Shown: positions 14,482-54,249 of the stretch, one piece after another
Layout: each line of letters opens with the position of its first letter
Position numbering within the stretch: the stretch's first letter is position 1
Source of the DNA: Arachidicoccus terrestris
Lineage (GTDB): Bacteria > Bacteroidota > Bacteroidia > Chitinophagales > Chitinophagaceae
Assembly: GCF_020042345.1 (NCBI RefSeq)
Contig: NZ_CP083387.1
Location: forward strand, 806,001 to 870,000
Reading direction: 5' to 3'
DNA: 64,000 nucleotides
Notes under the pieces: generated by a model
What the model saw: only the letters and a program-made list of their open reading frames with translations
What the model was told of the DNA's origin: nothing
Databases searched by the model: none
Position numbers and translations under genes: made by a program

Positions 14482-16653
14482 TTAATCCAAATCAGATGTT
14501 TTCCATCCATTTTTATCTTCTGTAAAGGGCTGCCCCAGCAATCTTTCAAAACGCGTCACCACAGTCCGCACGCCACCATCCTCGTCTTTGATTCGCAGGG
14601 AAATAAAACGGGAAGCCTGCAGCCCAGCCGGCTGCCAGGACTGTTTTTCATACAAAGCAGGCTTTTCCGCTACCTGCCTGGTATCCGTTGGCGCGCCATA
14701 CTCGTCGGATAAATAATTACTTTCAGCCTCGAGTTCCTCATATACGATACGCAGTAAGGCAATGGGCGTTTCCGACAACTTTTCTTGCGTGCGCACCTGA
14801 CAGGCGATCAAAGAGGCTGCGTCTGCAGCCATAGATGCGCCGTCCATATCTATTTCCGATCTGGCCACCTCTACTAACGCATCACTTTCGAGACTCAATT
14901 GAATCAATGGAACCTTTACATTATATTTACCCTTATAATTGGCATCATATCTGTCAATATAACGGGCAAAATACGCCCTTAACGCCGGGTCAGCTACATA
15001 TATGAAAGCCCCTTCGATACCCCGCAGGATAAGCGTACTATAAATATGCTGAATATACTTATGCAATTCCTTTGGATCTTTGATACCAGTCTTACCGGTT
15101 CTGTCATGGTACTTGCCTTTTATTACTTCAATAAGTCCCGTATGGGTATTATAAGTAATCTCAGGACCGAAGATAACGCCTGTGTAATTAAGGTCATACC
15201 CCTGCACCGTGTGAATACAGCCTACTTCTTTTTCGCAGCCCTGACGGTATATCCAGTTACTGCTGGAGCTGTTCCATCTTAACAGAACACCGTCCAGATC
15301 AATATCAAATGCAGCCTTATCCTTTTTGGACACCCAGTGCCAGGCGTAACCGGCGACTATCCTGCTAAGGCCAAAGGCAGTTTCCCTTTTATCCAATTCC
15401 CTGATCAGATCCTCCAGCCGGTCGAACAGCAAGAATTCGTATTCTTTAAACCTGATGGGTTTCAGCTTCTGGGTCTCAGTAAGATCAATCTGCAATAATC
15501 CATTCAAAAAACGAACCAGTTTTTCCCCTCCTTTAGAACGGAGCTGCGATTTAAGCTTAAGTCGCAGGGTCGAATCAGCGGCAAAAATCTGATCAAATTC
15601 TGATGCCCGGACATCCGAGGGCCTGACGCTCTGCCTGGCGTCATAAAACAAAATAGCCTTGTCAGATTGTTTCGTAATCCACTGCAGTTCGGAGGTTGTA
15701 TATGGATCCAGCCCTAACCGCCTACTGTTATCATCAAAGTTTTTATATAGTGCGCCTAAAGCAACTCTACGCCTGAGCCGGTGTGCTTCGTCAACCAGTA
15801 AGATATCATAATGTTGTTTGGCTACATCACTTGGGCTTAAGACCATAGACTTTTTCAGTCCTTTCACCTGAGCAAATATGTTCTTCACAGTTTCTCTAAA
15901 TGAGGCCATGGGAACAACAAGCCCCATTTTTAAGTCAGGGAATCGTAGTTTGGCCGCCTTTACCAATTCAATAATTTCATTATCTTCTGCTCCTAATTCT
16001 GCAAACCTAAAGGTCTCCAGATCTGTATTAAGCAGTTTAAAAAGAAATATGGCTAGTACGCTTTTTCCGGTTCCTGCACCTCCACTGACCATAATAAGTT
16101 TCTTGTCTGCCATAACCAGAGCGGACAGGATCTCCTTTAAAGACATCACCTGATCAGCACTGAGTGCCTTGTATGGAGAATACTTGAAAAGGTCGGAATT
16201 ATCAATTTCCCGCAGTGTACGCTGCACAATCTTCATTTTCCTCAGCTCATCCCAGATCCCTTCGAATAATCCTTCATAAAGTTCTTTTTGCTGAAAATAA
16301 CGATGATTGGCGATACCGACATTCCCATTGATCAATTTATAACTTTCATCTGCCGACATGTAGCGGATCAGGCTGGATTCAATATCCAGCGTCGCCGATT
16401 TATTGAACTTATCACTGGAGATCAGAAGCGCGTCAGATAACAGCTGTTTGCGTTCATTCTTCAGATGCGCTTTCATCCGCTCCGGAGCATCTGTCGTCTC
16501 TCCTATATATGCCTGCTTTGACGCGTCATCTTTCAGAATATATACAAGCGGCCATAGGCTGTTTTCATAGAACTCCTGGGAACGGCTGATCGCATCAACC
16601 ACAGCGCCGTCAAATGCATATTTATTGATGGTGAAAGGTGCTTTTGCACTCAT
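14482..16653 (-). CDS. GIY-YIG nuclease-like domain fused to DUF2075 ATPase/helicase
   Basis: 723 aa, cytoplasmic. Residues ~35-110 carry a GIY-YIG-like nuclease signature (LVYILKDD...AYIGETTDAPERMKAHL). A superfamily-1-like P-loop domain of the DUF2075 type follows: Walker A GGAGTGKSVLA near 190, Walker B ILLVDEAHRLRRR near 286, and later helicase-type motifs (FYDARQSV, SQLRSKGG, CIHTVQGYDLNYTGVIFG, LLTR-type arginine region ILRGIEGAF). The start overlaps the stop of the upstream MazG-like gene by 4 bp (ATGA), so the two are translationally coupled. The combination points to nucleic-acid processing or phage defence, but no activity is established. Its flanks are housekeeping repair genes (sbcD/sbcC) and a TlpA-like gene. 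Confidence 0.88.
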   Translation of the reverse strand: MSAKAPFTINKYAFDGAVVDAISRSQEFYENSLWPLVYILKDDASKQAYIGETTDAPERMKAHLKNERKQLLSDALLISSDKFNKSATLDIESSLIRYMSADESYKLINGNVGIANHRYFQQKELYEGLFEGIWDELRKMKIVQRTLREIDNSDLFKYSPYKALSADQVMSLKEILSALVMADKKLIMVSGGAGTGKSVLAIFLFKLLNTDLETFRFAELGAEDNEIIELVKAAKLRFPDLKMGLVVPMASFRETVKNIFAQVKGLKKSMVLSPSDVAKQHYDILLVDEAHRLRRRVALGALYKNFDDNSRRLGLDPYTTSELQWITKQSDKAILFYDARQSVRPSDVRASEFDQIFAADSTLRLKLKSQLRSKGGEKLVRFLNGLLQIDLTETQKLKPIRFKEYEFLLFDRLEDLIRELDKRETAFGLSRIVAGYAWHWVSKKDKAAFDIDLDGVLLRWNSSSSNWIYRQGCEKEVGCIHTVQGYDLNYTGVIFGPEITYNTHTGLIEVIKGKYHDRTGKTGIKDPKELHKYIQHIYSTLILRGIEGAFIYVADPALRAYFARYIDRYDANYKGKYNVKVPLIQLSLESDALVEVARSEIDMDGASMAADAASLIACQVRTQEKLSETPIALLRIVYEELEAESNYLSDEYGAPTDTRQVAEKPALYEKQSWQPAGLQASRFISLRIKDEDGGVRTVVTRFERLLGQPFTEDKNGWKTSDLD

Positions 16654-16979
16654 AATTCGTTATATTTTTTGGCAGATCCTTTAGCCTTCTCCACAGGATA
16701 CTTCTCATTATTGAGCCGTAGTTTATCTTCTACGATCTGCGTAATATCCAGGCCCTGCTTATCGGCTAACAGCAAGGCATACATCAGCACATCCGCCAAT
16801 TCTTCACGAACTTTTTGGGGATCGGCACTTTCTGCATCTTTCCAGAGAAATACCTCGAGCAGCTCAGCGGCCTCAATAGAAAGAGCAAGCGCGAGATCCT
16901 TGGCGTTATGGAACTGCGCCCAGTCTCTGTCGTCTCTGAACTGCCTGATCTTTGCTTTAAGCGCCTCCGTTTCTTTCAT
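16650..16979 (-). CDS. MazG-like nucleotide pyrophosphohydrolase
   Basis: 109 aa, a compact single-domain all-alpha NTP pyrophosphatase. The metal-binding acidic motif is present as EAAELLEVFLW, followed by REELADVLMYALLLAD, i.e. the E-x2-E...E-x2-D pattern of the MazG/iMazG family. The C-terminus has the NNEKYPVEKAKGSAKKY motif typical of this subgroup. The enzyme should hydrolyse (d)NTPs to NMP and pyrophosphate using Mg2+. Its stop overlaps the start of the GIY-YIG/DUF2075 gene, so they form a two-gene operon. It may sanitise nucleotides or deplete them as part of a defence response; that is inference. Confidence 0.9.
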   Translation of the reverse strand: MKETEALKAKIRQFRDDRDWAQFHNAKDLALALSIEAAELLEVFLWKDAESADPQKVREELADVLMYALLLADKQGLDITQIVEDKLRLNNEKYPVEKAKGSAKKYNEL

Positions 16980-17234: not shown

Positions 17235-18509
17235 ATGAAGGTATTACATACAGCAGACTGGCATATTGGCCAACTTTTCTATGAGTATGACAGAACTTAT
17301 GAACATGAGCAGTTCCTGGCCTGGCTCACAGAAATTCTATGTGCGGAAAAGATCGACTTACTGTTAATTTCCGGGGATGTCTTTGATATCTCCAACCCTT
17401 CCGCGCAGTCCATACGGCTGTTCTATACTTTTCTGAACAATGCCACCAGAAAATGCCCTGACCTGCAGGTGATTATTACGGCGGGCAACCATGATTCTGC
17501 CTCCCGCCTGGAAGCGCCGCGGCCCTTACTGGAATCATCCCGGATTCATATAGTAGGCACCATCGAAAAAGATTCTTCGGGCCGGATCAATTACGATAAG
17601 ATCTCCATTCCCATCACCGCAGCCGATGGAACGATCACCGGCTGGTGCCTTGCAGCGCCTTATCTTAGGGTAGGCGATTACCCCGCAGTGGACAGAACCG
17701 ACAAAGAACTGCTACAAAACTATACATACGCAGCGGGCGTAACTGCATTTTATAAAGAGGCTTATCAGCATCTGTCGCAGAAAAAAACAGCCGATCAGTT
17801 TATAATTGCCCTGGGGCACCTGCATGCCGCCCAGGCAGAGATCACCGATATGGACAGCGCAGAACGGGCCATTATGGGCGGCATAGAATGTGTCCCGGCC
17901 GACGCCTTTCACCGGGATCTGCTGTATGTGGCATTGGGCCATATCCATAAGGCACAGCGAATAGGCGGAAAAGAGCATATCCGGTATTCAGGCAGTCCTC
18001 TGCCGCTGTCCTTCTCTGAACTCCAGTATAAACACCAGGTACTTTGTTTTGAACTGGATCAGACGGGCATCCACGACCTCCGGTCCATTGAAGTGCCCGT
18101 CAGTGTTCCGCTGCTCAGGATACCGAAAAAGCATGCGCCTTTGCCCGAAGTACTCAGAGCGCTGGAAGCGCTGCCGGAGGGACCGGAACCATCCGATAGC
18201 CCTTATGCTCCTTTTCTGGAAATCAGAATATTAATGGATGAACCCAGGCCGGGCTTGCGATTTCAGGTAGAAAAAGCGTTGGAAGGCAAGCATGTCCGGC
18301 TGGCTAAAATAGATGTCCGCTATCCCTCAAAACAGGGCAATGGAAAGGGCAACCCGGGCGATATTGAAAATAATCTCGGTGAATTAACACCGCAGGCCGT
18401 CTTTAACCGGCTCTATGAAGAGCAGTTTCAGACGGCCCCACCGGCCAATCTGATCAGATTATTTAACCGGGCAGCCCGGGAAGTCGCGCATAAAGAAGAC
18501 CCATCATGA
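17235..18509 (+). CDS. sbcD: Exonuclease subunit SbcD
   Basis: 424 aa. All Mre11-type phosphoesterase motifs are present: HTADWHIGQ at residue 5, ISGDVFD near 45, GNHDS near 80, GHLHAA near 195 and GHIHKAQR near 235. The C-terminal capping region matches SbcD. It is the nuclease subunit of the SbcCD complex, which opens DNA hairpins and processes double-strand ends. Its stop overlaps the sbcC start by 4 bp. Its partner sbcC is interrupted by an insertion sequence, so this SbcD may lack a functional ATPase partner. Confidence 0.95.
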   Translation: MKVLHTADWHIGQLFYEYDRTYEHEQFLAWLTEILCAEKIDLLLISGDVFDISNPSAQSIRLFYTFLNNATRKCPDLQVIITAGNHDSASRLEAPRPLLESSRIHIVGTIEKDSSGRINYDKISIPITAADGTITGWCLAAPYLRVGDYPAVDRTDKELLQNYTYAAGVTAFYKEAYQHLSQKKTADQFIIALGHLHAAQAEITDMDSAERAIMGGIECVPADAFHRDLLYVALGHIHKAQRIGGKEHIRYSGSPLPLSFSELQYKHQVLCFELDQTGIHDLRSIEVPVSVPLLRIPKKHAPLPEVLRALEALPEGPEPSDSPYAPFLEIRILMDEPRPGLRFQVEKALEGKHVRLAKIDVRYPSKQGNGKGNPGDIENNLGELTPQAVFNRLYEEQFQTAPPANLIRLFNRAAREVAHKEDPS

Positions 18510-21500
18510 AGATCCTACAAATTAAGATAAATAACCTGGCCTCCCTTGAGGGGGAGACGACTATAGACTTTACCAGTGAACCGCTGGCCTCCGCTGGTAT
18601 ATTTGCAATTACCGGCCCGACCGGTGCCGGTAAGTCCACCATACTGGATGCACTATGCCTGGCGCTGTATGCCCGCACGCCCCGTTATGTCCAGGCAGGC
18701 GCCAGCAGGGGAATTGAACTGCAGGACAGCTCCGGCGACACAATCCATCAGGGAGACCCCCGGGCGATTCTCAGAGACGGAACTGCCGAGGGAAGTGCCT
18801 CCGTCATATTTATGGGCATTGATGGGGATCATTACGAAGCGACCTGGAGTGTCAGAAGAGCCCGTCTTAAAATAACCGGGAAACTGGGCGCCTACAACCA
18901 TTCATTATTTAATATTACCCGGCAAAAGGATATTCCCGGCACCAAAACAGTTATCCAGAAAGAAATAGAAAGACTGGTCGGTCTCAATTTTGATCAATTC
19001 ACCCGAAGTGTACTGTTGGCGCAGGGTGATTTTACAGCTTTCATGAAAGCAAATAAAGAGGAAAAATCTGCTCTGCTGGAAAAACTGACCGGTTCTCAGA
19101 TCTATTCAGAGATATCCAAGAATATATATGAACATTACAAAGTCGAAGAAGAGGCGTTAAAAGCCCTTCGCGCTAAAGCGGAAAATATTGATATACTGAC
19201 AGAAGAACAAAGAACGCTTATAGAAGAAGAGATCGTTCTCTATCAAAATCAGATCCATGACCAGTCGGAAGAAAAAACGCTAACCGATAAGGCCGTCAGC
19301 TGGCACCGGCAAAAAGCGGATCTTGAAGCAAAAAAGCAAGAAGCGCTTCAACTCTATGATACAGCAACTTCAGCAGCAGCCGCTCTTTCTGACACCAAAA
19401 CTCAGCTCGACCAGGCATTAGAGGTTAGGCCTTTAAAGGCGGTTCAGGAAGGCCTGTTGGAAGAGCAGGCTTTGTTAAAGGAAATTTCTCAGACCAGGGA
19501 AGAACTTGATAAAAAACTACAGACGTTAACGGACCAGAAAACAAAAGCCACGACTACGTATCAGACGCTGGCAGTCCAAAAAAATGAACATGAAAAAGCA
19601 TTAAAGGAAGCTAAACCTTCACTTTTGCAGGCCAGCCTCCTGGACTCCAGGATATACGCGGCGAAGGAACAAATGACATCGTTCCAGAGAGTACTTGCAG
19701 CGTCCTTGCAAGCAAAGGAAGAGCTAGCAAAGCAACAGAAAGCCGTACAGGCAAAATTAGAGACGCATGAAACCTCCTTACAATCTGCCGTGGAATGGAT
19801 CCGGCAGCGTCAGGACCGCAGCAAAATTGCAGAACATACAGAACTCATCACAGGCAGACTGGAAGAAGCAAAGGAACTCGGCAGACGTTGTAGTGAACAT
19901 AAAGAAGCTATTACCAGTGGCACCCGGGAAATAGAACGGCAGGGCCAGCAACTTATAGCCTTAAATAACCAACTCACTGAGACAGAGAAAGAGTATGAGG
20001 AAAACATAAGGTTACTCCGGGAGGTACAACAACAGTTAATGCAGGCAAATGGCGATGCCTTGGAAGAAGAACTGTCAATGGTGCAAAATAAAGAAAGAGC
20101 ACTGGACAGAGCCCAGGGTCAATTTGAACTATTTGACAGGTCCCTTAAAGACCACGAAGAAGCCCAACAAAAGGTATCCGGCAATCGCCAGTTGATACAA
20201 ACCTTAACCGCACAGGCAGCAGAGATCCAACCCAAGGTCGCAGCGCTGGAGATCCAGGTAAAAACGACCCGTGATCTGATTGCCAAAGCCTCTTTACGCC
20301 ATGCTGAAAATATTCAACAGCTAAGAGCCAGTCTTCATCCGGGAGATCCGTGTCCTGTGTGCGGCAGCACAGCACATCCCTACAGCACAGATGCGCATAC
20401 GGATCTGGGGGACCAACTCGTTGATGCCCTCAAAGATGAGCTTGATGCCGCAGAAAAAGCATTTGCCGCTACCCACTTACAATATACACAAATAGAAGCC
20501 GAAAACAGCCTGAGGCAGAAACAGCAGCAGCTACTCGAAGAAACCGCAGAAAATAAACAGGCCGCTTACCAAAATGCAGAAAAACAGTGGAGCGCTACGA
20601 CCTTCTCTTCCCAGTTAAAGGAAAAGTCAGCTGCAGAAATCAATCAGTGGCTGAGCCGTTCGTTGGCAACACACAGAGAGGCCTTAGAAAGCCTGCAAGC
20701 TAGAAAGGCCTCAGTCCGAAAACTTTTGCAAGAGCAGGAAAGACTGCAACAAACAACAGATAAGCAACGAGTCGGATTGCAAAAACTTAAAGACACGCAA
20801 AAAGACCTTCAATCCGGCATACATTTAAAAACACAGCTTTTGTCTGCTGGTAAGACTGCATTACAGGAGGCACTAGATCAACTGCAGGCTATACAAAGCA
20901 GCTTAAACCCCTATTTTTCCTCCACAGACTGGTTCAGCAACTGGGAGGCAGCACCAGATACATTCATGGATGCCATCCAAAAATTTGCGGCTGACTGGAA
21001 AACGAAACAACAAGCGTCAGAAAATCTCAGCCGGCAGGTGGATCAGTTCAAAATAGAAAGCCAGGGCTTTGACCGTCAATTAGAAGCCCTGACCAAGCAG
21101 CTGCGACAGCAAGAGCAGACCGTCACCCAACAGGAGCATTTACTGGAAGGACTGCTGGAGGAACGTAAAAAGCTCTTTGACGGACAGTCTGTTGCGGAGG
21201 CAGAAAAGCAGCTACAGGACGCGGTTGAAACGGCCGCGCAGCAGGCAGAGACTGCCAGATCACAGGCAGAAAATCTGGAAAAAGAGTGGACGAAGTGCCA
21301 TTTTGAAAAAGGGGTTTTGGAAAACAATTATCAACAGGCAGCCGCAAAACACCAACAGCTGGATCAGAAAATAACAGACTGGATCAGTCACTATAATATC
21401 AAAAAGAAAAATGCGCCGTTAAAAAGAGCGCAGGTAGAAACGCTGCTTGGTTTCTCCGACCAGTGGATCCAGCAATGTCAGGAGAAAATAAAACAGTCAG

Positions 21501-21995
21501 ACAGCGAGGTGCAGGACGTCAAAGCCAGGCTGGAAGAGCGGGAACGAGATTTAAAAAAGCATTTATCGACCGCTGGCGATCTTAAAACATTAGAAGAACT
21601 TCTAGCCTTACAGGCAGCGCAGGCGAGCTCCCTGGAACAGCTACAAAAGGACCTCCTGGAGCGTCAGTTCAGACTGGAAAACAATCAAAAAAATATACAA
21701 AAACTCGGCGGCTTTCAAAAAGAGATCGACGGCCAGCAAAAAATATTTGACGAGTGGGCTGCGCTAAACAGCCTCATCGGCTCCAAGGAAGGCCGTAAGT
21801 TCAGAGAGATTGCCCAGCAATATACACTAGACCTGCTACTGCAATATGCCAACCAGCATCTGTATGTACTCAGCAAAAGATATATGCTTTCCAGGATACA
21901 GGATTCACTGGGCATACAGGTGATCGATCAGGATATGGCCGATGAAATTAGATCCGTATATTCCCTTTCCGGTGGCGAATCCTTTCTGGTATCTC
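18506..21995 (+). pseudogene. sbcC: SbcC ATPase, N-terminal 93% (split by an insertion sequence)
   Basis: The reading frame holds an N-terminal Walker A (TGPTGAGKSTILDALCLALYAR, around residue 38), an ALLAQGDFTAFM Q-loop region, a very long coiled coil and a CPVCGSTAHP zinc-hook motif (CxxC) near residue 617. Late in the frame is the ABC signature SLSGGESFLVS. At 21995 the sequence runs into an insertion sequence; the frame continues four sense codons into the element and stops at 22007-22009. The missing Walker B/D-loop end lies intact on the other side (23637-23896). Joined at one copy of the target duplication the protein would be 1249 aa, normal for SbcC. As it stands the product lacks Walker B and should not hydrolyse ATP. 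Confidence 0.95.
21990..21995. repeat. 6-bp target-site duplication, left copy
   Basis: TATCTC immediately precedes the left terminal inverted repeat of the insertion sequence, and the same six bases follow its right end at 23631-23636. Removing one copy and the element restores the sbcC frame exactly. Confidence 0.93.
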
Positions 21996-22053
21996 GGGTG
22001 TTCCTGTAAACACCCAAAGGAGTTGTTACATATTAAATATTAAACTAATAAAT

Positions 22054-22096
22054 CCTCTCTTTTTTCTGTAAAAAGGAATTAAAGAGAGGCTTTTTT
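22054..22096 (+). terminator. Rho-independent terminator inside the insertion sequence
   Basis: CCTCTCTTT (22054-22062) pairs with AAAGAGAGG (22081-22089), followed by C and six T. It reads on the plus strand and would stop transcripts entering from sbcC, adding a polar effect to the insertion. Confidence 0.7.
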
Positions 22097-22165
22097 GTGG
22101 ATGGGACATAGCAAGGCCATTAGACCTGTTATTTAGTCCGGTTGGATAAGGTAAGCGTGCCAATT

Positions 22166-23509
22166 CTAGGCCGCTGTGCTTTTAATCTGTGCGGCCGCCT
22201 GTTGCATTCTTTTGCTGATAATGGATGCGTTTGCTGTAAGGATGCCAAAGAAGATCCAGCAGGTCTCGGTAGACTGGTTCCTGGCTTTGATTTTATTTAA
22301 ATGATAGTGGTTTTTCTCATTGCCAAAACTTCCTTCCAGGACCGTGCCCCTTTGACGGTTCAGCGCTGCCCGCATCGTTTTAGATTGTTCAACCAAAGCA
22401 GGCTTCTGCCTTCCTTTAGGAATAAAATTAGTGGTGATATTGTTTTGACGGCAATACTTTCTGTTGGTATTAGTGGCATAAATAGCATCGGCACTATGAT
22501 GCGTGCACTTCCCAAAAAGTTTACGGTGCAGATAAATCGTATCCACCAGCTGTGTGCCTTCATTGAAGGCATCATAACTCAGCCGTTGGATAAAACTGAT
22601 GCCGTCTACCTGTAACTTGTTGACCTTGGCTCCGAACTCTACAGCTTTTATTTCTTTGCCCCGGATAATGGGACGGATGTAGGGCTTGCTGATCGATACG
22701 ATCCGGTCTTTGATCTGTGGGTTCCTATCCCCAAAAGCTTTGTTATGCTGTTGCTCGTATAGGGTACGTATCGTCTTCAGGCGGGTGGCTTTCCGCTTGC
22801 TGATATGAGTTCCGGGGCGGGCCTGCAATTCATCGTTAAGCTGCAGCAGGCGGTACAAAAAACCTAAGAGCTGCTTACGCAGTTTACGTTCCTTACGCCT
22901 GCTCTTTTTCCTGCAGCGCTGGTAGTTCAGGAACAGGGTTTTATGTTTCTCGTAGTTACTGCGGCTCTTACGTAATTTCAACTGTTTTCTAAAGAGTTGA
23001 TTCAACGCATATACTTCCTTACAGGCACCCCACAGCAATTTGCAGTCAGTGGGATGGGATATATAGGATTCATAACACGTGGCGTCCTCAAAGCTGAAGG
23101 CTGTATCTTTTATCCAGGGCTTCCAGTAACCCGCCAGGCACTGCTGCATGGCATCCATATCCAGGTATTGCCCAATATAACTGCGCCACCAGCTGGGAAG
23201 ATTGGAATCCTTAATTCTCTCACCGGGCCTGAGCCGGATGCCACAAAATAGCTGCATGCACCAGTCAGTATTAATACGATCGATCAGCATCCGGTCACTG
23301 ACGCCCATAACGTGCTTAAGGATCATCAGTCCAATACCTCCGCTGACATCAAACCAGCTCTTGCGTCCCTGGCCGGTAATAAGACCCCGGGGACTCGGAA
23401 TTGTAGCGGATAACTGCTCAAAAGGGATGGCTTTATAAAGAATTCCTAAATCTGTTTGGCTAAAATGCTTATCCAGAAGATTCTCGTGAAAAAAAAGTAG
23501 ATTTGTCAT
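22166..23509 (-). CDS. DDE transposase of the sbcC insertion sequence (IS5/IS1182-like)
   Basis: 447 aa. Features seen: an N-terminal region with GRKSWFDVSGGIGLMILKHVMGVSD; a first Asp candidate in FSFEDATCYESYISHPTD; a basic region rich in Lys/Arg (RCRKKSRRKERKLRKQLL); then IVSISKPYIRPIIRGKEIKAVEFGAKVNK and HSADAIYATNTNRKYC, which supplies a second Asp; and a C-terminal ...RGTVLEGSFGNEKNHYHLNKIKAR... with the last Glu. It has the full length usual for this group and no internal stop, so it may still be active. The gene begins 121 bp inside the right inverted repeat. Confidence 0.85.
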   Translation of the reverse strand: MTNLLFFHENLLDKHFSQTDLGILYKAIPFEQLSATIPSPRGLITGQGRKSWFDVSGGIGLMILKHVMGVSDRMLIDRINTDWCMQLFCGIRLRPGERIKDSNLPSWWRSYIGQYLDMDAMQQCLAGYWKPWIKDTAFSFEDATCYESYISHPTDCKLLWGACKEVYALNQLFRKQLKLRKSRSNYEKHKTLFLNYQRCRKKSRRKERKLRKQLLGFLYRLLQLNDELQARPGTHISKRKATRLKTIRTLYEQQHNKAFGDRNPQIKDRIVSISKPYIRPIIRGKEIKAVEFGAKVNKLQVDGISFIQRLSYDAFNEGTQLVDTIYLHRKLFGKCTHHSADAIYATNTNRKYCRQNNITTNFIPKGRQKPALVEQSKTMRAALNRQRGTVLEGSFGNEKNHYHLNKIKARNQSTETCWIFFGILTANASIISKRMQQAAAQIKSTAA

Positions 23510-23630
23510 GGATTATAAAAAAAGTTATGCCCTACTTTGAACACTTTTTGTGCCAAAGCAGGGCAATTTTGTTATAATCCACACCCTGAAACTCAATGGG
23601 GATAACTATTACAGCTTTTCAGGAACACCC

Positions 23631-23636
23631 TATCTC
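23631..23636. repeat. 6-bp target-site duplication, right copy
   Basis: TATCTC follows the right inverted repeat directly and matches 21990-21995. The sbcC sequence resumes after it. Confidence 0.93.
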
Positions 23637-23896
23637 TGGCACTGGCACTTGGCCTGGCCTCCTTATCTTCTCACCGGTTAAAAGTAGAATCTTTATTTAT
23701 CGATGAAGGTTTTGGATCCCTGGACCCCGCTACCCTGTCAGTTGCGATGGATGCCTTGGAAAGACTGCAGGATCAGGGCCGAAAAGTCGGTGTCATTTCC
23801 CACGTCCAGGAGATGACAGAAAGGATTGCCGTACAGATCAATGTACATAAAAGTTCCAGCGGCAAAAGCTCAATCTCTGTGCTGTCTTTATCGTAA
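23637..23896 (+). pseudogene. sbcC: SbcC ATPase, C-terminal fragment
   Basis: The sequence continues sbcC in the same codon phase (CTG is split across the insertion). It encodes ALALGLASLSSHRLK, then the Walker B and D-loop ESLFIDEGFGSLDPATL, then the switch His in VGVISHVQEM, ending at TAA 23894-23896. It has no start codon or promoter of its own. The preserved frame and motifs mean that the insertion is recent compared with the decay rate of the gene. Confidence 0.95.
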
Positions 23897-27677: not shown

Positions 27678-29903
27678 CTAGTCGTTTCTATGATTTCTGT
27701 CACCGTTTCTTGAGTGCTGTCCATCTCTTCTGTCGGGACGGTCCCTTCTTTCCGGACGGTCAGAACGCTCAGGGCGTTCGGACATGCCTTCAGGTCGGGG
27801 CTGAAGCGCCTTGTGACTTAATTTATATTTACCGGTCTTCGGGTCTACAGCGATCAGTTTTACCTGGACTTTTTCGCCATCCTGGAAGACACCTTCCATA
27901 GATTCAAGGCGTTTCCAGCTGATTTCACTGATATGCAGCAAACCTTCTTTCTTAGGCAGGAATTCAACAAACGCACCGAACTCTTTTACACCTTTGACAG
28001 TACCTTCGTAAACTGTTCCTACTTCAGGTACAGCAATGATACCTTTGATCACTTCCAGTGCTCTGTTCACACCATCCTTATCATTAGAGAAGATGCTAAC
28101 CTCACCTTTATCATTTACTTCTTCAATATTGATCGTGGTACCCGTTTCTTTCTGTAATTCCTGAATGACTTTACCGCCTGGTCCGATCACCGCACCGATA
28201 AATTCCTTATCGATGATAATCTTCACCATTCTCGGTGCATGAGGCTTCACATCGTCATGGGCTTTCTCAATACAGTTATACATCGCATCCAGAATATGCA
28301 GTCTGCCGGCTTTTGCCTGCAGTAACGCTTCACGCATAACGTCCATGCTCAGGCCGTCTACTTTGATATCCATCTGAACACCGCAAATGCCGTCTCTTGT
28401 ACCTGTTACTTTGAAATCCATATCTCCCAGATGATCTTCATCACCTAAGATATCGGAAAGAATGGCGTATTTTCCATCTTCTCTTGTGATCAGTCCCATC
28501 GCGATACCGCCCACATGTTTGGGAACAGGAACACCTGCATCCATCAGTGCCAGAGAACCCGCACAAACTGTAGCCATGGAAGAAGAACCGTTAGATTCCA
28601 GAATATCACTGATAATACGGATTGTATAAGGATAATCACCCGTTGGGATCATCTGTTTCAGGCTACGCATCGCCAGGTTACCATGACCCACTTCTCTTCT
28701 GCCCGGACCACGCATAGGCCTGGTTTCGCCGGTAGAGAATGGAGGGAAATTATAATGTAAATAAAATTTAGAGTAATTTGAGGTAGCAGCTGTTTCAATC
28801 AGCAACTCATCCAGCGGTGTACCCAGCGTAACGGTAGAAAGAGACTGGGTTTCTCCTCTGGTGAACAGGGCAGAACCGTGTGGGGTTGGCAATGGGTCAA
28901 TTTCCATAGCCAGGGGGCGGACTTCATCCAGCTGACGGCCATCCAGACGGATACGCTCATCAAGCATCATATTACGCACCAGCTCCCATTGCAGGTCTTC
29001 ATAGTATTTTTTTGCCAGTTTGACGGTCAGCTCTTCAGCGTCTTCTCCCAGGCTTTCCACCAGTGCATCTTTTAATGCTTTGAAAGCTTCACTTCTTTCA
29101 TGCTTGGCCGTTTTACCACGGGAGATTTCATTGATCTTATCGGTCGCAAATGCGGCAACTTTTGCTTTCAGTGCTTCGTCCTGTTCCGGCTTGGTGTATT
29201 CTCTTTTACCAGTAATGCCTTTCAGTTCACGCAGTTTTTCCTGCGCTTTGATCTGAACGCGGATCGCTTCATGTGCAACGCCTAATGCCTCAATCAGATC
29301 TTCTTCGCTGCATTCTTTGCTTTCCCCTTCCACCATCATCAGGTTTTTCTCCGTAGCGGCGATAATCAGGTTTACATCTGCGTTCTCAACGGCAGAGCGG
29401 CTTGGGTTTACGACGAATTTACCATCGATACGTGCCACACGTACTTCAGAGATAATTTCTTTTACCGGAATATCAGAAACGGCCAGCGCCGCAGAGGCAG
29501 CCAGACAGGCCAGCGCGTCCGGCATGATTTGCTCATCGCTGGACACCAGTGTGATCAAAACCTGCACATCACAGAAATAGTCTTCCGGAAACAAAGGTCT
29601 CAATGCACGGTCAACCAGGCGGCTGATCAGGATCTCATAATCGTTCAGGCGCCCTTCTCTTTTGAAAAAAGAGCCTGGAATACGACCAGCAGATGCAAAT
29701 TTTTCTTGGTAATCAACGCTTAATGGAAAAAAGGACTGCCCTTCTCTGGGCTCTTGGCTAGCAACGACGGTAGCCAGAATGATATTGTTTCCCTGGCGGA
29801 TTGTAACGGCGCCATCGGCCTGTCTGGCCAGTTTGCCTGTTTCAATGAACACCTCGCGGCCTTCTCCCAGGTCAAATGAAACACTTAGTGGTTGTGTTAA
29901 CAT
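27678..29903 (-). CDS. pnp: Polyribonucleotide nucleotidyltransferase (PNPase)
   Basis: 741 aa. Two RNase PH-like domains (FDLGEGREVFIETGKLARQA at the start; FTRGETQSLSTVTLGT near 350) flank the helical linker. A KH domain follows near 558-615 with GAVIGPGGKVIQELQKET, then an S1 domain at about 622-695 (GTVKGVKEFGAFVEF, GLLHISEISW). The protein ends in a charged tail rich in Arg, Asp and Pro (ERSDRPERRDRPDRRDG). It is a phosphorolytic 3'-5' exoribonuclease of the cytoplasmic RNA degradation machinery. It lies downstream of rpsO, the classical arrangement, with a terminator hairpin between the two. Confidence 0.97.
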   Translation of the reverse strand: MLTQPLSVSFDLGEGREVFIETGKLARQADGAVTIRQGNNIILATVVASQEPREGQSFFPLSVDYQEKFASAGRIPGSFFKREGRLNDYEILISRLVDRALRPLFPEDYFCDVQVLITLVSSDEQIMPDALACLAASAALAVSDIPVKEIISEVRVARIDGKFVVNPSRSAVENADVNLIIAATEKNLMMVEGESKECSEEDLIEALGVAHEAIRVQIKAQEKLRELKGITGKREYTKPEQDEALKAKVAAFATDKINEISRGKTAKHERSEAFKALKDALVESLGEDAEELTVKLAKKYYEDLQWELVRNMMLDERIRLDGRQLDEVRPLAMEIDPLPTPHGSALFTRGETQSLSTVTLGTPLDELLIETAATSNYSKFYLHYNFPPFSTGETRPMRGPGRREVGHGNLAMRSLKQMIPTGDYPYTIRIISDILESNGSSSMATVCAGSLALMDAGVPVPKHVGGIAMGLITREDGKYAILSDILGDEDHLGDMDFKVTGTRDGICGVQMDIKVDGLSMDVMREALLQAKAGRLHILDAMYNCIEKAHDDVKPHAPRMVKIIIDKEFIGAVIGPGGKVIQELQKETGTTINIEEVNDKGEVSIFSNDKDGVNRALEVIKGIIAVPEVGTVYEGTVKGVKEFGAFVEFLPKKEGLLHISEISWKRLESMEGVFQDGEKVQVKLIAVDPKTGKYKLSHKALQPRPEGMSERPERSDRPERRDRPDRRDGQHSRNGDRNHRND

Positions 29904-37927: not shown

Positions 37928-38116
37928 GATTGTTCTTTGCAGGCGCCATCAGCTTTCTCAGCGGTTTAGTTGGAAGGCACCATTTCCACTTTGATCTTAA
38001 AGATCCTCCTAAAGATAAATCAAATGTGTGACAACTTGATCAGGCTTCAACGTATTTACGCAATTTTGCAGGACCTGCTGTTCCTGCCTGGCCATATATA
38101 ACAGTTATTTTACAGC

Positions 38117-51273: not shown

Positions 51274-52623
51274 CTAATTTCTGGCATAAAAGAAGGAGGA
51301 AAATGAGGGATTTGCCATTTTTTCGCACTTCGATAATTTTTTTTCAATGTTCACGAAGTCGGAAAAATTAATATTTACACTTTGCGCCCAATTTTCAACT
51401 CTACATCTATTTATAATATCACCAGTAGTAACCCTTTGCTTTTTAATATTTACGTACCATTTAGGCCCAGGGAGTTGTTTTTTTGATTTGGACTGCTGCT
51501 GTTTGTGCGATGCCAGTATCATCATAGCATAACATGCGGATACAAATGCCGGAACTTTTGCTACCGCAGTTTTTTCCCGGATTTGTGCCTGACCACATCC
51601 CATTAATGTTTTCTGATCTCTAAAGCCGACTTCTATCTCCCATCTTCTAATATAAGCCTGGACCTGCAGGAAAATATCTATCTCTTGATTGGTTGATATT
51701 AAATAGGCGGGAGCACGATACAGTAATTTTGATTTTTTGGTGAGCCTATAGGAAACTGGCCTGATAATGATCAGCATTAAGTCTCTCTTACCTGATTTTC
51801 GCCAGCGTATATCTTTTACAACTTTCACATTGAATGTACGCATCTTTCCTGCAGCCCATGCTTCAACCTGCTGATAAGGATAGTCATCGCTTTGTCGGAT
51901 TTGTTCTGGTGTGGGGAGCTCTTCTCCATAATATCGTTTACGTCCCTTTCCTGATTGTTGCTCTTCTGGTAGAGCATAAATTTTTGAATCCTTCCTTATG
52001 CGGCCAATGAGTTCTACATTTTCTGGAAGTTGCCTTAAAACAGTTCCATTCGTGTAACTGCCGTCCACGCTCAGGATAAGTTTTTTATTTTTATAGCCAT
52101 CGTCATCTAAGCACTTTCTCAAGGCTATGACACGCTGGACGCCTACTTCGCTCATTTTTTCTTTCTTCTGTCTTTCCCGGTATAGTGCTACTTCCTGGTC
52201 GGTCGCATTTTTTGACGGCTTCTTGGTGGGAGGACAATGTTTGAAGTCTACCGGGATGGCCCTTGATGGACCGCAGAGGTCTTTTTCAATGAGCGATAAA
52301 GAGAGTTGAACAAATCGTTGGCCCCAAATGAAATTATTACAAAACGGGGGGCCAAGTGGATCCCTTAGCCATCCGGTCCCTGATATTTTCTTCCCTCTCT
52401 TCCTTAACAGGGTATCGTCCATGTGTGCATAAATAAAATCGCCTTTCTTTCTATTTTGATACACGACCTCCTTTCTAACTTCAGAAAAAATTGCATTCAT
52501 ATCCATTCTTTCACCCTTAAATATTCGATAGGCCGCACTCCAGTCCTTAAACTGATTCCCACTTGCTGTTAACATCCCTGTTATCGTACAACGTCCAATA
52601 CATGAAATAACTCCGTGAGACAA
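51274..52623 (-). CDS. Transposase, IS4-superfamily (YREK motif)
   Basis: 449 aa, DDE transposase. First Asp candidate in GDFIYAHMDDTLLRKRG near 65; the second in LILSVDGSYTNGTVL near 195; the third region is YIRRWEIEVGFRDQK near 350, which fits the Y-(2)-R-(3)-E-(6)-K signature of the IS4 superfamily exactly. No internal stop is present, so the enzyme may be active. The gene reads against clpB. An AbrB-like gene precedes it by 77 bp. Confidence 0.85.
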   Translation of the reverse strand: MSHGVISCIGRCTITGMLTASGNQFKDWSAAYRIFKGERMDMNAIFSEVRKEVVYQNRKKGDFIYAHMDDTLLRKRGKKISGTGWLRDPLGPPFCNNFIWGQRFVQLSLSLIEKDLCGPSRAIPVDFKHCPPTKKPSKNATDQEVALYRERQKKEKMSEVGVQRVIALRKCLDDDGYKNKKLILSVDGSYTNGTVLRQLPENVELIGRIRKDSKIYALPEEQQSGKGRKRYYGEELPTPEQIRQSDDYPYQQVEAWAAGKMRTFNVKVVKDIRWRKSGKRDLMLIIIRPVSYRLTKKSKLLYRAPAYLISTNQEIDIFLQVQAYIRRWEIEVGFRDQKTLMGCGQAQIREKTAVAKVPAFVSACYAMMILASHKQQQSKSKKQLPGPKWYVNIKKQRVTTGDIINRCRVENWAQSVNINFSDFVNIEKKLSKCEKMANPSFSSFFYARN

Positions 52624-53061: not shown

Positions 53062-53116
53062 TTGTTCACGTTTTTTCCTTGTTCACGTAACGTGAACAAG
53101 GAAAAAACGTGAACAA
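53062..53116. repeat. Perfect 55-bp palindrome (27-bp arms, 1-bp centre)
   Basis: The arms 53062-53088 and 53090-53116 are exact reverse complements around A53089. Each arm holds two copies of TTGTTCACGT joined by TTTTTTCC. It lies in the gap between the duplicated clpB terminator and the phosphoesterase gene. As RNA it would form a very long stem; as DNA it could extrude a cruciform. It is unlike the terminators elsewhere in the window. Confidence 0.85.
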
Positions 53117-53346: not shown

Positions 53347-54249
53347 ATGATGAAAGTAAATCACCTGATATATCTCTGCATACTTGCGCTGTTCGCATCA
53401 ACAGTCAATGCGCAGCTTAACGCCCCGGTCATCCGGTTCGGGCTTATTGCAGATCCGCAGTATGCCAATGTCGATCCACAGGGAAGCAGGTTTTACCGCA
53501 ACTCTCTACCTAAGCTGGACACCGCTGTTGCCGCGTTCAATCAACAAAAGCTGCCCTTTATCATCAATTTAGGCGATATCACTGACCGGAATCCTAAGGA
53601 TCTGGATACGGTTCTATTTACGATCAGCAAGTATAGGGGTAAAGTATATACCACCACCGGGAACCACGACTATACACATATAACAGACAACCAGTCCTTA
53701 TATAAAAAACTGCAAATGCCGGCTGCCTATTACGCCTTTAACAAGGGCAATTGGCGCTTTATCATGCTCAACACAAATGAAGTCGCTTCTTATTCAAACA
53801 TCTCCGGCACACCTAAGGAAAAAGAGCTGCAGCAAATGTTGCAGCAAATAAAAGAAAACAACGGCAAAAATGGTTATCCGTACAATGGAGGTATCAGCAA
53901 AAAGCAATTGCAGTGGCTGGAGCAGCAACTGAGAAATGCCGAGAGAAAAAAAGAAAATGTACTGGTGTTTTCTCACCATCCCCTGGGATGCGCTGTCGGC
54001 TTAACCGCCCTCAATGATCAGGAAATCACTTCCGTGATCCGGCAATACAGCTGCGTAAAGGCCCTCATTTCCGGTCATCATCATGCGGGTGCATTTTGCC
54101 ATATAGGTTCAATTCCCTGTATCGTTGTGGAAGGCATGGTGGAAACGGCGGACCAGAATTCCTACGGTACTGTTACATTATACCCGGACCGGATCGTTCT
54201 GGATGGCCAGGGAAGAATGACTTCCCGAACAATTAAGCTGACAGATTAG
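53347..54249 (+). CDS. Calcineurin-like metallophosphoesterase, exported
   Basis: 300 aa with a signal peptide (MMKVNHLIYLCILALFASTVNAQ). The metallophosphoesterase motifs are in order: FGLIADPQYAN near 32 (D-x-[HQ]), INLGDITDRN near 77, TTTGNHDYTH near 103, VFSHHPLG near 218 and ISGHHHAGAF near 244. The form resembles Mn-dependent ADP-ribose/CDP-alcohol diphosphatase-like enzymes. It is periplasmic or secreted, with an unknown substrate. It converges on the ROK kinase gene of the sialic-acid cluster. Confidence 0.9.
   Translation: MMKVNHLIYLCILALFASTVNAQLNAPVIRFGLIADPQYANVDPQGSRFYRNSLPKLDTAVAAFNQQKLPFIINLGDITDRNPKDLDTVLFTISKYRGKVYTTTGNHDYTHITDNQSLYKKLQMPAAYYAFNKGNWRFIMLNTNEVASYSNISGTPKEKELQQMLQQIKENNGKNGYPYNGGISKKQLQWLEQQLRNAERKKENVLVFSHHPLGCAVGLTALNDQEITSVIRQYSCVKALISGHHHAGAFCHIGSIPCIVVEGMVETADQNSYGTVTLYPDRIVLDGQGRMTSRTIKLTD

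Follow-up and report, generated by a model that had tools for sequence, protein, structure and literature searches.

An insertion sequence very probably switched off sbcC, beside an intact sbcD, in Arachidicoccus terrestris

Introduction

The SbcCD nuclease is the bacterial form of Mre11-Rad50. Its SbcD subunit has a metallophosphoesterase domain and a C-terminal domain, and SbcC is one polypeptide with the four motifs conventionally called Walker A, hook, ABC signature, and Walker B; in Escherichia coli, SbcD is idle without SbcC. The relevant passages of one report describe an SbcC homologue carried on an island, without an insertion (PMC3161016). Here, we analyze the sbcDC locus in a 64,000-nucleotide stretch of the A. 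terrestris chromosome (NZ_CP083387.1, positions 806,001 to 870,000, forward strand; hereafter the window, whose numbering we use unless stated otherwise), together with the insertion sequence (IS) lodged in its sbcC gene. Judging from the assembled sequence, it is highly likely that a resident copy of this element recently entered the 3' end of sbcC, of which no second copy was found in the genome; the element very probably switched the gene off, which would abolish SbcCD activity.

Results

An insertion sequence separates the ABC signature of SbcC from Walker B

The locus comprises the following features, with lengths in amino acids (aa) and open reading frames abbreviated as ORFs.

17235-18509, plus strand: sbcD, intact, 424 aa
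18506-21995, plus strand: 5' part of sbcC, 1,163 codons and one base, with Walker A, the CPVC hook, and the ABC signature; its ORF continues into the IS to 22009
21990-21995, no strand: left TATCTC target duplication, from the sequence
21996-23630, minus strand: IS of 1,635 bp whose terminal inverted repeats match perfectly over 11 bp; the genome has four full-length copies
22166-23509, minus strand: transposase, 447 aa, DDE_Tnp_1_2 (ORF and domain search)
23631-23636, no strand: right TATCTC target duplication, from the sequence
23637-23896, plus strand: 3' part of sbcC with Walker B and the stretch that follows it (PF13558 match)

In organization, the locus resembles described SbcCD systems: sbcD lies upstream of sbcC and overlaps it by 4 bp, its product combines Metallophos and SbcD_C domains, both above the Pfam cut-offs, and scores 188.5 bits against TIGR00619 (cut-off 77.65), and the A. 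terrestris DNA encodes all four SbcC motifs. It differs in that the IS divides SbcC. Codon 37 marks the start of Walker A, codon 616 that of the CPVC hook, and codon 1155 that of the SGGE signature; the reading frame then terminates four residues (RVFL) past the junction, leaving a 1,167-aa ORF that falls below the cut-offs of both PRK10246 (287 bits; cut-off 750) and TIGR00618 (137; cut-off 478.5). The 3' part, read in the frame from 23633, carries SLFIDEGFGSLD and ISHV and ends at a stop codon at 23894-23896. The SbcD of this pair thus has the domains of its family, and no single SbcC polypeptide bears all four motifs; we regard the gene as a disabled allele of an sbcC. When the flanks are joined in silico, omitting the IS and one duplication, they read through 1,249 codons to the first stop. 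The initial annotation had described an intact sbcD next to an sbcC that such a removal would restore, with the signature and Walker B on opposite sides of an IS bounded by perfect 11-bp repeats and 6-bp TATCTC duplications, and each of these points is borne out by our coordinates, motif positions, and domain scores.

The annotation had also called for comparison with sister genomes and for a search for another sbcC copy. We examined five other genomes of the genus (G001-G005; six with the A. terrestris genome, G000; one genome per species). In the SbcCD-positive sister species G002, sbcC is unbroken, with a frame of 1,254 codons, and its protein has identical residues across the insertion site. 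G000 is a single contig of 4,901,925 bases, and searches of this 4.9-Mb genome found no second SbcD (one match; 6 of 6 candidates scored), no second SbcC (one match; 12 of 17 scored), and no second Walker B end (33 of 33 PF13558 candidates scored; the 3' fragment was the sole match). In PADLOC, the top match of SbcC was the Lamassu protein LmuB, at 97 bits; no search for the Lamassu gene set was made, and we keep the SbcC assignment because sbcD is adjacent and the protein matches an SbcC model at 287 bits.

We propose that a resident IS transposed into the 3' end of sbcC, duplicating 6 bp and cutting the ATPase between signature and Walker B. The truncated product would leave the nucleotide site without its Walker B part. 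Because the earliest ATG, GTG, or TTG of the 3' frame lies at 23747, beyond Walker B, independent translation of that part would not yield a product containing the motif. The SbcCD nuclease would then be absent and SbcD left idle, a loss presumably tolerated since SbcCD seems to be an accessory function in this family.

Some points weigh against this account. The 3' fragment scores 23.2 bits against PF13558, below the Pfam cut-off of 27, as expected for a cut domain; five SbcC candidates elsewhere in the genome went unscored; and as the evidence is an assembled sequence, the insertion may have arisen in culture or be present in a mixed population. The SbcD cut-off applied below is also strict. 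Only 8 of 14 control genomes pass it (13 of 14 have some match), so that some relatives below it may still have a diverged SbcD, for which "absent" would be an overstatement.

The element is a multicopy simple IS, and its insertion appears to be recent

The element has the makeup of a simple IS, with terminal inverted repeats, one transposase, a target duplication, and several copies. The outer 11 bp of its termini (21996-22006 and 23620-23630) are perfectly repeated (GGGTGTTCCTG and CAGGAACACCC), and its sole gene is the uninterrupted transposase ORF, which exceeds the Pfam cut-off for DDE_Tnp_1_2 and lies slightly below that for DUF772. Four full-length copies and one 53-base piece are present on the G000 chromosome. 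All four full-length copies are flanked by matching duplications, of 6 bp in three cases and 7 bp in one (on the chromosome plus strand TAAGGG, TATCTC, TACCGGT, and TATTTA, the last of which reads TAAATA in the orientation of the element), so chance is no issue for calling the insertion.

The copy in sbcC does not differ from that at chromosome position 2636510 at any of 1,635 positions and differs from that at 4818191 at 11 of 1,635; a copy in the opposite orientation (L004) was 98% identical in the search for full-length copies. Identity over 1,635 bases with another copy points to a recent insertion. The same identity is compatible with the strongest alternative, that the insertion arose in the laboratory or exists in only part of the population and that the species normally has a working SbcCD. 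An intact sbcD and an sbcC otherwise open over 1,249 codons, in which decay has not begun, also fit this possibility, which we rate as a serious one, somewhat short of an even chance; it can hold together with the insertion and loss of activity proposed above, and its odds do not subtract from theirs.

As to family, the element shares DDE_Tnp_1_2 with IS5- and ISNCY-type elements, and the nearest NCBIfam models are IS5_1 and ISNCY_1; it scores well below the cut-off of each (175.2 bits versus 275 and 102 bits versus 325) and differs from these types in generating 6-7 bp duplications that start with TA. It might be ISDol1-like. The passage concerned in PMC8147514 only names the ISDol1 group, and neither it nor the pertinent part of PMC10132070 settles the name of the family. 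According to the latter, IS1202-family elements duplicate 3-5 bp, more than 15 bp, or 0 bp, and their Acinetobacter members have 24-26 bp inverted repeats with TGT/ACA ends; the A. terrestris element, which duplicates 6-7 bp, has perfect repeats of 11 bp, and bears GGG/CCC ends, does not belong to that family as described there.

Three pieces of the element lie at contig ends in G002 (C31, C48, and C35; L112, L125, and L111), with 94.6-97.6% DNA identity. Host genes compared between G000 and G002 are less alike: identity is 84.5% for a polynucleotide-phosphorylase-like gene and 68.9% for sbcD, for which dN/dS values of 0.28/2.62 are near saturation. The greater likeness of the IS pieces suggests that the element moved between species. 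Genomes sampled across the family numbered 294 for the IS, 195 for SbcD, and 147 for the helicase treated below. With two candidates scored per genome, the IS had matches (E ≤ 0.001) in 14 of the 294, and those outside G000 and G002 were partial and 65-91% identical.

One further record bears on transposases of this kind. The circular, 1,531-bp Phocaeicola "plasmid" OY726060.1 (L142) contains 1,272 bases that match a transposase 40% identical to the A. terrestris one. A search of the record for terminal repeats found no more than one inverted pair of 13 nt, its halves 17 nt apart, and the record may be an IS circle, not a plasmid.

SbcCD is patchily distributed and may have been gained laterally

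SbcCD is patchy in this lineage. Of 195 family genomes, 26 have an SbcD above the curated cut-off, as do 13 of 59 relatives; some match (E ≤ 0.001) occurs in 93 of the 195, those below the cut-off being mostly short, at 20-32 bits. Within the genus, three of six genomes pass, with open frames in G000 and G002 and a frameshifted one in G001, and no SbcD match was found in G003, G004, or G005. We considered G001 as a second, independent case of sbcCD decay and rejected it. In this single-contig genome of completeness 94, frameshifts affect not only sbcD and sbcC but also the neighboring outer-membrane gene, the helicase, and the polynucleotide-phosphorylase-like gene (e.g., C1:590644-611388); since they are common to several nearby genes, we read them as likely errors of an error-rich assembly.

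A distance of 3-5 kb separates sbcDC from the polynucleotide-phosphorylase-like gene (window 27678-29903, which we name so from its sequence) in G000, G001, and G002. The 36 kb around that gene in G003 and the 35 kb in G005 contain no matches to sbcD, sbcC, or the helicase, and the neighborhoods differ, so that sbcDC may have been lost there or never gained; in G004, the corresponding neighborhood was sought and not located.

A tree of 18 SbcD proteins, rooted at the midpoint for drawing only, suggests lateral gain of SbcD. The family members G000, G002, G010, and G020 cluster (99/95), within an 11-row group that also includes Pseudomonadota and one myxobacterium (92/98, drawn open); four order-mates and Glaciecola form a separate five-row group (91/97, open), and G035, of the same family, stands far off at the end of a very long branch. 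Similarity to the A. terrestris SbcD guided the choice of outside rows (55 loci, 49 of them Acinetobacter), and the tree excludes G001, G037, G045, G050, and 46 of the 49 Acinetobacter loci.

Divergently oriented neighbors of sbcDC offer a further context:

16650-16979, minus strand: MazG-like gene
14482-16653, minus strand: helicase of Schlafen group 3, matched at its N terminus by GIY-YIG (23.3 bits; cut-off 22.6)

This pair is divergent from sbcDC in G000, G001, and G002, whereas G003, G004, and G005 give no match to the helicase. Among the 147 genomes, 10 have helicase matches, five of them strong (at least 467 bits, a threshold set post hoc): G000, G002, G020, G063, and G093. The MazG-like gene adjoins the helicase in G020, G063, and G093. 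In G020, an SbcCD-positive genome of another genus, about 9 kb separates the pair from sbcD, and the orientation is again divergent; sbcDC is on a different contig in G063, and G093 has only a weak match to the SbcD model. SbcD thus passes its cut-off in four of the five strong-helicase genomes versus 26 of 195 in the family sample, a comparison not corrected for kinship. Against an association, most of the 26 SbcD genomes are not among the strong-helicase ones, and G010, covered by both searches, is SbcD-positive without a helicase match. It is possible, yet on balance unlikely, that this family acquired SbcCD laterally as a module that is easily lost and that acts with the MazG-like/Schlafen-helicase pair and not in housekeeping repair, the IS then being a snapshot of its loss; such a module may serve in nucleic-acid processing or phage defence.

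The plainer reading, an IS recently inserted into the only sbcC found, looks like an ordinary strain-level mutation in a gene that is apparently missing from many relatives. Dispensable genes are often knocked out by IS, and the allele itself is therefore of little importance. Its use lies elsewhere: a naturally SbcC-broken strain and a sister species (G002) with an unbroken gene in the same neighborhood form a pair in which the role of SbcCD can be studied beyond the usual model species.

A link between palindromes and the loss of sbcC is not supported

Elsewhere in the window, the initial annotation had noted a perfect palindrome, which we confirm:

53062-53116, no strand: 55-bp palindrome, with 27-nt arms (53062-53088 and 53090-53116) that are 100% complementary around a 1-nt centre

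It holds four copies of TTGTTCACGT, two direct and two inverted, and is flanked on one side by a DDE_5 transposase gene (51274-52623) and on the other by a metallophosphoesterase gene (53347-54249).

The annotation had further speculated that loss of sbcC and this palindrome are connected. According to PMC4245961, the in vitro lower limit for SbcCD hairpins corresponds to palindromes of 20-36 bp, and the palindromes studied in vivo measured 246, 460, and 480 bp; given the in vitro limit, a palindrome of 55 bp is not too short to be cleaved. None of the other five genus genomes has a match to the arm when up to 3 mismatches are allowed, which also favors a link. We compared inverted repeats in samples of 400 kb each from G000, G002 (drawn from three contigs), G003, G004, and G020, with a G+C content of 0.363 to 0.452 for which no correction was made. 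The G000 sample excludes the palindrome at 53062; the window was scanned apart and yielded a near-perfect arm of 31 nt and a perfect arm of 27 nt. With the centre limited to 1 nt, the longest perfect arms were 17 (G000), 13 (G002), 21 (G003), 14 (G004), and 20 nt (G020), so that no sample held one of at least 25 nt and the 27-nt arms in the window stand out, a point that tells against our dismissal of the link.

The remaining counts oppose it. Arms of at least 25 nt (at most 10% mismatch, spacer at most 12) numbered 1 per 400 kb in G000 versus 6 in the SbcCD-positive G002; G003 and G004, both without SbcD, had 0 and 3, and the SbcCD-positive G020 had 0. By the same criteria, arms of at least 30 nt occurred in G002 alone among the five samples, 3 times. 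With spacers of up to 8 nt, the longest perfect arms were 25 nt in G000, 33 in G002 (spacer 3), 21 in G003, 24 in G004, and 20 in G020; a hairpin longer than that at 53062 therefore exists in a genome that has SbcCD. The 53062 palindrome is unusual as a perfect one, and the G000 sample overall is not palindrome-rich, its perfect arms reaching only 17 nt when the centre may not exceed 1 nt. Moreover, an IS copy identical to another leaves little time for palindromes to have built up, and the insertion is apparently too recent to have shaped the genome, which makes a causal role unlikely. The proposed connection is thus unsupported, and we consider it very improbable that SbcCD loss is tied to palindromes that the nuclease would cut, such as that at 53062.

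Two further alternatives are hardly credible. Precise excision of the IS might toggle SbcCD on and off, as the target duplication is clean and leaves the flanks in register; against such a switch, simple IS leave duplications of this kind as a rule, and all four full-length copies here have them. SbcC might instead function as two polypeptides with the 3' part separately translated, for which a 96-aa open frame is retained, but the position of the first start codon of that frame, past Walker B, speaks against it.

Another feature of the window

A fluoride riboswitch (RF01734; 47 bits, gathering score 34) lies on the minus strand at 37933-37996, upstream of small minus-strand ORFs.

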